This document shows positions 6,133 to 8,832 of a stretch of DNA of 32,139 bases, one piece after another (within the stretch, counting starts at the first letter, position 1; each line of letters opens with the position of its first letter). Position numbers and translations under genes: made by a program. The notes below the pieces were generated by a model that worked only from the letters and a program-made list of their open reading frames with translations, made no database searches and had not been told where the DNA came from. The DNA comes from Thermoleophilia bacterium (lineage in GTDB: Bacteria > Actinomycetota > Thermoleophilia > Solirubrobacterales > 70-9), in assembly GCA_016649905.1 (NCBI GenBank), contig JAENWU010000017.1, positions 1-32,139 of the forward strand. The letters run 5' to 3'.

Positions 6133-7659
6133 ATGAGCGAGGCCCCGCCGCGGGCCGAGTCGGCGCCCGAGACGACCGGGGACCGCTCCGGAGCTGCCAG
6201 TGAGGCGCAGCGCCGCGCCAAGGTCGAGCGCCTGCGCGAGGCGGGGATCAATCCCTACCCGCACTCCTTCGAAGGCCGCGACCACGTCGCCGACATCCTC
6301 GCCGCCCACGACCCGGCTGAGCTGGAGGAGGGCGAGCACGACCAGTTCTCCTACCGGGTGATGGGCCGGGTGACCGGTAAGCGCGGCCACGGCAAGACCG
6401 CCTTCCTCGACGTCCGCGACATCACCGGCACGATCCAGGCCTACGCCCGCCGCGACGTGCTCGGCGACGAGGACTTCGACCGGGTCGAGGACCTCGACAT
6501 CGGCGATCTGGTCGGGATCGAGGGGCCGCTGTACGTGACCAAGCGCGGGCAGCTGGCGATCGGGCTGCGCAAGTGCGTGCTGCTGGCCAAGGCGCTGCTC
6601 GACCCGCCCGACCTCTTCCACGGCATCTCCGATCCGGAGACTCGCTACCGCCAGCGCGAGCTCGACCTGATGGCCAACGAGGAGTCGCGGGAGATCTTCA
6701 AGAAGCGGGCGAAGCTGCTCTGGGAGATCCGCAACCACATGAACGAGCGCGGCTGGGTCGAGCTGGAAACGCCGGTCCTGCAGCGGCTCACGGGGGGCGC
6801 CGCGGCGCGGCCCTTCGTCACTCACCACAACGCCCTGGACCGTGAGCTCTTCCTTCGCACGGCGACCGAGCTCTACCTCAAGCGGGCGATCGTCGGCGGC
6901 TTCGAGGACGTCTACGAGTTCGGCAAGTTCTTCCGCAACGAGGGGATGTCGCCTCAGCACAACCCCGAGTTCACGATGCTGGAGATGTTCGTCGGCGGCG
7001 CCGACTACAACGGCGTCATGGACTTCGTCGAGGTCCTCGTCGCCAACGTGGTCGAGAAGGTGATGGGGACGACGGTGGTCGAACGCGACGGGGTCGAGAT
7101 CGACTTCAAGGCGCCCTGGCCGCGGGTGGTGCTGCGCGACGAGCTCCTGCGCGAGACCGGCGTCGACATCTACAAGGCGAGCCGCGACGAGCTGGCCGAG
7201 CTGGCCGGCGACGACGCCGGCGAGAACGACGACTGGGCCGGGCTCGTCGACACCCTGCAGGGCAAGCTGATCGAGCCGAAGCTGATCCAGCCGACCTTCA
7301 TCACCGTGCTGCCGATCGACATCTGGCCGCTGGTCAAGGTCCACCCCGACGATCCCAAGGTCTGCGAGGCCTTCGACGGCATCGTCGCCGGGATGGAGAT
7401 CGTCGGCGGCGGCACCGACATCAACGACCCGGTCGAGCAGCGCCAGCGCTTCATCGGCCAACGTGAACGCCAGGAAGCCGGCGCCGAGGAGGATCCCCAT
7501 CCCCACGACGAAGAGTTCGTCAAGGCGATCGAATACGGGATGCCGCCGGCGAGCGGCTGCGGCCTCGGGATCGACCGCCTGCTGATGATCATGACCGGGG
7601 CGAAGAGCCTGCGGGACGTGATCATCTACCCCGCCATGCGCGAGGCGCCGGGTAGCTAG
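6133..7659 (+). CDS. lysS: Class II lysyl-tRNA synthetase with altered lysine-pocket residues
   Basis: 508 residues, 16 nt after prmC. The N-terminal anticodon-binding OB fold (about 70-170) reads VMGRVTGKRGHGKTAFLDVRD, typical LysRS. The class II core has GGAAARPFVTHHNALD, motif 2 FRNEGMSPQHNPEFTMLE (267-284) and motif 3 GCGLGIDRLL (475-484). Overall this is plainly LysRS and would charge tRNA-Lys with lysine. Residues lining the amino-acid site differ from the norm: MLEMFVGGADY (282-292) replaces the usual LExYxAYADY, and EIVGGGTDIND (422-432) replaces ExxNxFSELND. In E. coli LysU numbering, recalled from memory, this gives Y280F, Y283G, N424G, F426G and E428D. Either a lineage variant or a specificity change. 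The stop codon overlaps that of the convergent SDR gene by three bases (CTAG). Confidence 0.9.
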   Translation: MSEAPPRAESAPETTGDRSGAASEAQRRAKVERLREAGINPYPHSFEGRDHVADILAAHDPAELEEGEHDQFSYRVMGRVTGKRGHGKTAFLDVRDITGTIQAYARRDVLGDEDFDRVEDLDIGDLVGIEGPLYVTKRGQLAIGLRKCVLLAKALLDPPDLFHGISDPETRYRQRELDLMANEESREIFKKRAKLLWEIRNHMNERGWVELETPVLQRLTGGAAARPFVTHHNALDRELFLRTATELYLKRAIVGGFEDVYEFGKFFRNEGMSPQHNPEFTMLEMFVGGADYNGVMDFVEVLVANVVEKVMGTTVVERDGVEIDFKAPWPRVVLRDELLRETGVDIYKASRDELAELAGDDAGENDDWAGLVDTLQGKLIEPKLIQPTFITVLPIDIWPLVKVHPDDPKVCEAFDGIVAGMEIVGGGTDINDPVEQRQRFIGQRERQEAGAEEDPHPHDEEFVKAIEYGMPPASGCGLGIDRLLMIMTGAKSLRDVIIYPAMREAPGS

Positions 7660-8411
7660 AAGGCTGCGTGCAGCATGCCGCCGTCGATCGGGATCACGGT
7701 CCCGGTGACGTAGGCGGCGCGCTTGGAGCAGAGGAAGGCGACGAGGTCCCCGTACTCCTCGGGTTGGCCGAGCCGGCCGGCCGGGACGTCCGTCTTGGCG
7801 GCCTCTTCAGCCTGCTCCAGAGAGCCCATGTTCGAGGCGAGCCGTTCGGTGGCGAATTTGCCGGTGGCGACGGTGTTGACGGTGATCCCGTCGCCGGCGA
7901 GCTCGCGCGAGAGCGTCTTCAGGTAGCCGACCGCCGCCATCCGGTGAGTGTTGGAGAGGTTGAGGTAGGGGATCGGCTCTCGGGTGGAGGTGGAGCCGAC
8001 GTTGACGATCCGCCCCCAGCCGCGCTCTCGCATCCCCGGCACGACCGCCTCGGCGAGGACTTTGGGCGCGAGCACCAGCGAGCGATAGGCGTGCTCCCAC
8101 TCGTCCCGCCCGTGGTCGAAGGCGCCGCCCATCGGCGGGCCACCGGTGTTGGCGACGAGGATCTCGACGGGCCCGAGCGCCCCCTCGACCTCCGCCGGCA
8201 GCGCCGCCAGCCGATCGACGTCGGCGGCATCGGCGACGAACGGCGTCGCTGCCTCGCCGATCTCCGCCGCCGCGTCCTCGAGCTTCTCCGTCGAGCGGCT
8301 GACGATCGCCACCCGCGCTCCCTCACGAGCCAGCGCAACCGCGATCCCCCGCCCCAGCCCACGGCTGGCGCCCATCACCAGCGCCACCTTGCCCTCGATG
8401 CCCAGATCCAT
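7656..8411 (-). CDS. SDR family oxidoreductase, beta-ketoacyl-ACP-reductase-like with atypical active site
   Basis: 251 residues, a normal short-chain dehydrogenase length. The cofactor loop is GASRGLG at 14-20, SRS at 38-40 suggests NADP preference, and VANTGG (87-91) stands for the usual NNAG. The active-site serine is S140 in VNVGSTSTREP, but the Tyr-x3-Lys pair is not present. The corresponding stretch is NLSNTHRMAAVG (151-162), with Ser/Asn in place of Tyr and Arg157 in place of Lys. This pattern is known in a BKR-like SDR subgroup that lacks the classical tetrad. The C-terminal IPIDGGML is canonical. Substrate unknown; may act on a 3-oxoacyl thioester or be a non-classical enzyme. Monocistronic, convergent with lysS and divergent from the tRNA gene. 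Confidence 0.85.
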   Translation of the reverse strand: MDLGIEGKVALVMGASRGLGRGIAVALAREGARVAIVSRSTEKLEDAAAEIGEAATPFVADAADVDRLAALPAEVEGALGPVEILVANTGGPPMGGAFDHGRDEWEHAYRSLVLAPKVLAEAVVPGMRERGWGRIVNVGSTSTREPIPYLNLSNTHRMAAVGYLKTLSRELAGDGITVNTVATGKFATERLASNMGSLEQAEEAAKTDVPAGRLGQPEEYGDLVAFLCSKRAAYVTGTVIPIDGGMLHAAF

Positions 8412-8473: not shown

Positions 8474-8569
8474 GCGCCCGTAGCTCAGTGGTCAACGGTT
8501 CCTTTCGGGGGGCCAAAGAGCGTCGGTCTTTCAAGCCGAAGGTCGCGGGTTCGACTCCCGTCGGGCGCA
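8474..8569 (+). tRNA. tRNA with UUC anticodon (nominally tRNA-Glu) and a 23-nt D-loop insertion
   Basis: A complete cloverleaf can be folded by hand. The acceptor stem is 8474-8480 with 8562-8568 (7 perfect pairs), discriminator A8569, no encoded CCA. The D stem is GCTC/GAGC (8483-8486, 8518-8521). The anticodon arm is TCGGT/GCCGA with loop CTTTCAA and anticodon TTC at 8530-8532. The variable loop has 5 nt. The T arm is 8545-8561 with loop TTCGACT. U8, A14, G15-C48, G18G19, U33 and the T-loop consensus are all kept. The D-loop is 31 nt rather than about 8; the extra 23 nt (8495-8517) contain GGTTCC and GGGGCC (8497-8502, 8509-8514), which form a six-pair hairpin with G-U pairs. D-stem and variable loop do not look like usual bacterial tRNA-Glu, which has a GUC-type D-stem and lacks base 47, so charging identity is uncertain. 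Confidence 0.85.
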
Positions 8570-8832
8570 TGCCGTTCCTCGCCGTTTTATGCCGGTCTTT
8601 GGCTCTGCGAAGGGGAATTCATTCCTTCAAACCAAAAGCCTTCTGCCGCCGCCTTCCGACCTGTTCCGAGGCTCGCCAGCCGCTGACTGCTACATCTCAG
8701 CTACATCCGGGGGACCGAAATGGCCTCGTGGCGGTCTCCCGAACCAGATCTCAGGCAACCCATGCCACCGACCTCCGCCTGGGCGCACAGGACTCCCATT
8801 TGTCGCACGCGGGGGCGTGCGGTGGTTCGCCC

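Follow-up and report, generated by a model that had tools for sequence, protein, structure and literature searches.

A UUC tRNA with a structurally conserved D-loop hairpin as the probable elongator tRNA-Glu of three Solirubrobacterales genera

Introduction

The systems closest to the gene studied here, a tRNA(UUC) gene with an extra hairpin in its D-loop, are found among class II tRNAs, archaeal tRNA introns and remolded tRNAs. The gene lies at positions 8474-8569 of a 32,139-nucleotide (nt) stretch of DNA from a Thermoleophilia bacterium (contig JAENWU010000017.1), which we call the window. Class II tRNAs (Leu, Ser and bacterial Tyr) likewise have an additional hairpin arm that is free in sequence and fixed in shape, but they carry it in the variable region; the window tRNA has a variable loop of 5 nt and its extra arm sits in the D-loop, and it is therefore not a class II tRNA. 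Archaeal non-canonical tRNA introns also place a hairpin-bearing insert at an unusual position of a tRNA gene; however, they are spliced via a bulge-helix-bulge motif (PMC4090602, PMC8450103), whereas the window tRNA is bacterial and does not have that motif. Finally, alloacceptor remolding, or anticodon shift, has been described in animal mitochondria and eukaryotic genomes (PMC4783518, PMC3923123). There, as we propose here, one isoacceptor family yields the anticodon of another and the original is replaced; the window tRNA differs in being bacterial and in having a new structural arm and viral copies.

In comparison with a canonical bacterial tRNA-Glu(UUC), the window tRNA has the same UUC anticodon, A37 and G1-C72, and the same place as sole reader of GAA in a genome. 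It differs by a GCTC/GAGC D-stem instead of a GUCU- or GUGU-type one, by C13-G22 instead of U13-G22:A46, and by the addition of base 47 and a 23-nt D-loop hairpin. Our literature searches, which covered open papers only, returned no match for D-loop insertions like this one in bacteria, and we found nowhere in the open literature an earlier description of an extra D-loop arm on an essential tRNA. We argue that the gene is very probably a working elongator tRNA-Glu(UUC) with a structurally conserved hairpin, which would have replaced the canonical tRNA. We read it as a working elongator because the gene is intact and is conserved among carriers, no canonical isoacceptor was found in any genome that has it, and GAA still specifies glutamate.

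Results

The D-loop hairpin is held as a structure. The gene is made up of the following parts:

8474..8569, + strand: tRNA(UUC) gene, 96 nt, acceptor stem to A73, CCA unencoded (Rfam RF00005; orthologues)
8483..8486, + strand: 5′ strand of the D-stem, GCTC, with its partner GAGC at 8518-8521 (unchanged across 25 homologues)
8487..8517, + strand: D-loop, 31 nt, AGTGGT + CAA(C) + hairpin + AAA (homologue alignment)
8497..8514, + strand: extra hairpin, 8497-8503 with 8508-8514, tetraloop UUCG at 8504-8507 (7/7 pairs compensatory)
8530..8532, + strand: anticodon UUC in the loop CUUUCAA, with A37 (Rfam match; loop invariant in 25 homologues)
8540..8544, + strand: variable loop AGGTC, including base 47 (sequence; Glu identity set, PMC9976931)

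The match to RF00005 scores 65.6 bits, where the gathering score is 29, and covers model positions 1-71 completely. Direct reading gives the acceptor stem GCGCCCG/CGGGCGC, and the anticodon arm has C32, U33, A37 and A38. Across the 25 homologues, all five stems are 96.6-100% paired. The end-to-end match and direct reading thus bear out the original prediction, made from the letters of the window, of an intact tRNA with a UUC anticodon, a 31-nt D-loop, a GCTC/GAGC D-stem and base 47. It had given the insert a six-pair stem; the hairpin stands, and the stem has 7 base pairs (bp) and a UUCG loop. It had also held that the gene does not look decayed and that an unconserved insert would indicate a dead tRNA; at the orthologous loci of related genomes the insert is conserved across three genera and its stem pairs covary. 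Its description of the body as Lys/Phe/Ala-like was nearly right, the nearest tRNA being Arg(ACG) and then Lys(UUU).

Twenty-five distinct host and viral sequences make up the alignment from which the conservation was measured. The D-stem, AGTGGT, the AA flanks on both sides of the hairpin and the anticodon loop are invariant (for the anticodon loop and D-stem this is partly by construction of the search pattern), and the sequence of the hairpin is free to vary. Specifically, both partners have changed in 7/7 hairpin pairs, pairing holds in 96.6% of cells, and double changes occupy 44 cells when 14.1 are expected from shuffles. The covariation score of the hairpin is 0.842, compared with 0.267 +/- 0.034 for shuffled alignments (0/500 as high), and slid pairings score at most 0.232. 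When the window tRNA is folded freely on its own, the D-arm comes out slightly different from the covariation-supported one, and the hairpin therefore rests on covariation. The stem is ~7 bp in homologues (9 bp in L308), with an internal mismatch at most, and the D-loop keeps a constant length of 31-32 nt in most sequences. Hairpin loops are UUCG, UCCG or UACG in the window’s genus; elsewhere they include UUAC, UAAC and UCAC. The hairpin has been kept by compensatory mutation in both hosts and viruses.

Insert-bearing UUC tRNAs are present in 28/399 genomes of the class and are confined to three Solirubrobacterales genera in two families (9/10, 2/2 and 17/17 genomes), which are uncultured soil actinobacteria. 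The carrier genomes are all draft metagenome-assembled genomes (MAGs), with the window’s own 92% complete. A scan of GTDB genomes returned 11 orthologues, all with an insert of identical length, and most of the MAGs concerned were labelled Solirubrobacterales or Actinomycetota; across the phylum, the insert pattern freed of its anticodon constraint was found in none of 396 genomes except the window’s own.

The canonical tRNA-Glu(UUC) was found in 0/29 genomes of the three genera (the 28 carriers and G368), whether the search pattern described the GUCU-type D-arm or left the D-arm out of account; the latter pattern picked up the insert tRNAs and their 3′ copies, along with a few hits that were background or degenerate. 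A DNA search for canonical Glu(UUC) in a subset of the carrier-genera genomes returned tRNAs for Gln, Gly and Pro and some weaker tRNA matches, and nothing more. By comparison, an ordinary Glu(UUC) is present in 26/28 comparison genomes (against 0/29, Fisher p = 3e-14, in a test that counts related genomes as independent). Full tRNA inventories of G208 (97% complete) and G300 (100%) cover every one of the 20 amino acids. G208 has no UUC tRNA other than the insert tRNA, and G300 has a second one, L202. Decoding of GAA by a CUC anticodon is not expected, and therefore the insert tRNA must read GAA, at least in G208. By function it is a tRNA-Glu(UUC), the only gene able to read GAA where GAA is Glu; it is strictly sole in G208. 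A check named in the original prediction, whether a standard tRNA-Glu(UUC) exists elsewhere in the genome, thus came back negative for these 29 genomes, with the G208 inventory yielding the insert tRNA as its only UUC tRNA. Among the three roles that it had offered (a variant elongator, a tRNA processed to remove the insert, or one used outside translation), the first is upheld by the sole UUC tRNA of G208 and the meaning of GAA, and the last, as a sole role, is ruled out in G208 unless a second tRNA was missed.

The second UUC tRNA of G300 (L202:101-191; C18:27136-27226 in that genome) has a shorter D-loop hairpin, GGCC-CACA-GGCC, and a C31-A39 mismatch, and is without A73. It is possibly a decaying or mobile-element paralogue.

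To read the meaning of GAA we aligned homology-supported genes of carrier genomes (the rpoB region, GluRS and others) and scored the conserved columns under GAA codons. These are Glu in 218/239 columns in carriers and in 175/181 in controls with the canonical tRNA, and the mean fraction of E at GAA columns is 0.615 and 0.669, respectively. GAA accounts for 6.7% of Glu codons in controls and for 11-14% in the three carrier genera, and hence is not avoided; a hint of avoidance came from the GluRS gene alone and was gone with more genes. An Arg-like tRNA body with a non-Glu D-stem and variable loop could suggest that GAA no longer encodes Glu and that this Arg/Lys-like tRNA inserts a different amino acid there. 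The codon-column alignment, in which GAA falls on conserved Glu, rules out this change of the genetic code, and we give the idea practically no weight.

When the insert is removed, Arg(ACG) is the nearest tRNA in all three genomes compared, at 82-88% identity; for the window tRNA the body identities are 88% to Arg(ACG), 85% to Lys(UUU), 85% to Gly(CCC) and 68% to Glu(CUC). The tRNA-Arg(ACG) of the same genomes has an identical acceptor stem and differs from the insert tRNA in its anticodon (ACG, not UUC) and in a normal D-loop with A20. The gene likely descends, by a shift of anticodon, from a tRNA of Arg- or Lys-like type. The Glu identity set of E. coli includes U34 U35 C36 A37, G1-C72, U11-A24, U13-G22:A46, U2-A71 and the absence of base 47 (PMC9976931). 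From this set the window tRNA has U34 U35 C36 A37 and G1-C72; direct reading finds C11-G24, C13-G22 with G46, U47 and C2-G71 at the remaining places.

Fourteen carrier genomes gave a tRNA-synt_1c match, a single gene in every case, and GatB is present in 12/12 genomes searched. With a single glutamyl-tRNA synthetase (GluRS), GatB present and no glutaminyl-tRNA synthetase, Gln-tRNA is therefore made by amidation, and the GluRS of carriers is probably non-discriminating. A search for a co-adapted GluRS gave no residue common to both carrier clades yet rare in canonical genomes. As a candidate charging enzyme, the neighbouring lysyl-tRNA synthetase (LysRS) has nothing in its favour beyond proximity; C36 does not fit Lys. 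Most of the 12 comparison genomes also have a second, shorter tRNA-synt_1c protein (~300 amino acids in several, GluQRS-like), which is absent from all 14 carrier genomes; this may be unrelated to the insert tRNA.

Copies of the insert-bearing UUC tRNA occur on eight IMG/VR viral contigs, most with hairpin sequences of their own. One of them, L311:5843-9491, is an array in which the insert tRNA (7451-7546, missed by ARAGORN) stands with 14 other tRNAs and a transfer-messenger RNA, near ribonucleotide reductase and RNA ligase genes; other such contigs have phage-like helicase, DNA methyltransferase or tail genes. Cultured phages (INPHARED) gave no match at 1e-5. In an RpoB tree, the carriers fall into two well-separated clades with canonical-tRNA genera between them (the position of G208 within the second clade is unsettled). 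Two distant clades and viral copies suggest horizontal spread between the two families, for which a phage is a plausible vehicle. On a further viral contig (L313:5110-5970), a QueC-like queuosine biosynthesis protein is encoded close to tRNAs for Arg, His, Asp and Glu(CUC).

Two genes of the window lie upstream of the tRNA:

6133..7659, + strand: class II lysyl-tRNA synthetase (lysS), two genes upstream of the tRNA (PF00152, 3.9e-77)
7656..8411, - strand: short-chain dehydrogenase adjoining the tRNA (upstream DNA aligns in most same-genus orthologues)

Both are common to most same-genus loci. On the 3′ side of the tRNA, at 8574-8760, same-genus similarity is lost, as expected at the site of an integrating element. 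In addition, copies of the tRNA’s 3′ half, running from the anticodon loop to the 3′ end only, are present in G000 (C48 near 19997, L221; C106 near 493) and in G216, G286 and G288; their layout was read in L221, L223 and L242. Such copies would be the mark of integrating elements that use the insert tRNA as an attachment site.

The hairpin also affects gene calling. For the window tRNA, ARAGORN agrees on the ends and returns a wrong cloverleaf and the label tRNA-Pro(GGG); the insert-tRNA genes are labelled Pro, Ala or Thr/His, or are overlooked. Counts of tRNAs are thus wrong for genomes that carry them.

Discussion

We strongly infer that the insert tRNA reads GAA, and GAG by wobble, and that it would be charged with glutamate by the single GluRS, mainly via U34 U35 C36 A37 and G1-C72; the charging we infer from codon meaning only. 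The hairpin would be retained in the mature RNA as an extra arm projecting from the elbow between bases 20 and 21, where it would stay clear of the contacts of G18 and G19 with the T-loop. Such an arm could have a use in cells that make Gln-tRNA indirectly, in which Glu-tRNA(Glu) would have to escape amidation by GatCAB. The tail domain of GatCAB fits the smaller D-loop of tRNA-Gln, and this is partly how tRNA-Glu is told apart (PMC4810234). A 7-bp hairpin between bases 20 and 21 may therefore act as a size-based identity element and a strong block to GatCAB; given the Arg-like body, a further effect would be to perturb base 20, which arginyl-tRNA synthetase uses. Blocking this amidotransferase is the role that we favour, tentatively.

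Several observations weigh against these proposals. G1-C72 alone should already exclude GatCAB, which would make the hairpin possibly redundant, and the canonical tRNA-Glu(CUC) of the same genomes copes without one. Charging by GluRS is not obvious for a tRNA without the E. coli determinants U11-A24, U13-G22:A46 and absence of base 47, and no GluRS residue has changed in parallel in both carrier clades. The second, poorer insert-bearing UUC tRNA of G300 means that the window-type gene need not be the sole one there, and every carrier genome is a draft MAG. The draft state of the genomes, together with a tRNA-Asn that was also unrecovered in the window genome, is what could be said for a decayed or extra-translational tRNA beside an unseen canonical tRNA-Glu(UUC) that does the decoding. 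We regard this as very improbable: the canonical gene was found in none of the 29 genomes of the carrier genera and is present in nearly all comparison genomes, the inventory of G208 is complete, and all stems of the insert tRNA are conserved with compensatory change.

What the hairpin does can be explained in other ways. It may do nothing: a D-loop expansion could have been fixed by drift, with the stem kept since an unpaired 23-nt loop would misfold the tRNA. The wide variation of the stem sequence and the GluRS without parallel change fit such a neutral insert, and compensatory change in a stem is selectable by folding alone; however, the insert has not been lost in any of the 28 carriers and 8 viral contigs, its length is almost constant, and its presence coincides with replacement of the canonical tRNA, so that we consider neutrality rather unlikely. 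A somewhat more doubtful idea is that the hairpin shields the molecule from a defence nuclease or toxin that cuts tRNAs, with hosts having acquired a resistant, phage-borne tRNA-Glu(UUC) and lost the sensitive canonical gene. The eight viral contigs, one with the tRNA in an array with an RNA ligase, and the two distant carrier clades are in keeping with this, and evasion of tRNA-targeting defences by phage tRNAs is known (PMC10264068, PMC11555353). But the known phage escapes use anticodon-loop changes (PMC10264068), not D-loop arms; this analysis identified no nuclease; and, with the insert almost universal in the carrier genera, any discrimination between phage and host would be gone. Excision of the hairpin from the precursor, as a mini-intron or processing signal, would leave an ordinary tRNA, since removal of the 23 nt gives a standard 73-nt molecule, and a hairpin whose shape is kept while its sequence varies freely is what such a signal might look like. 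We think this improbable. By inspection there is no archaeal-type motif of two 3-nt bulges 4 bp apart, just a single stem flanked by CAA(C) and AA; the insert is too short for a group I intron and bears no signature of one; and no tRNA splicing endonuclease is known in bacteria. Moreover, the hairpin itself is conserved by covariation, and the invariant AA flanks and the 31-32 nt loop of most sequences fit a retained arm.

The D-loop is among the least tolerant parts of a tRNA, as it builds the elbow that is gripped by the ribosome and many enzymes. A lineage in which the GAA-reading tRNA has a 7-bp D-loop hairpin thus offers a natural test of two things: how much the elbow tolerates, and how tRNA-Glu is separated from tRNA-Gln by GluRS and GatCAB. 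Retention of the hairpin and exchange of the isoacceptor could together amount to a new elongator layout, in which an obligatory D-loop arm would serve as an identity or anti-identity element and an Arg/Lys-like tRNA, carried by phages between families, would have taken over Glu decoding; we hold this as a possibility short of even odds. These soil actinobacteria also provide a clear example from bacteria of an essential isoacceptor that has apparently given way to a tRNA from a different lineage, for which the viral copies are a possible vehicle.
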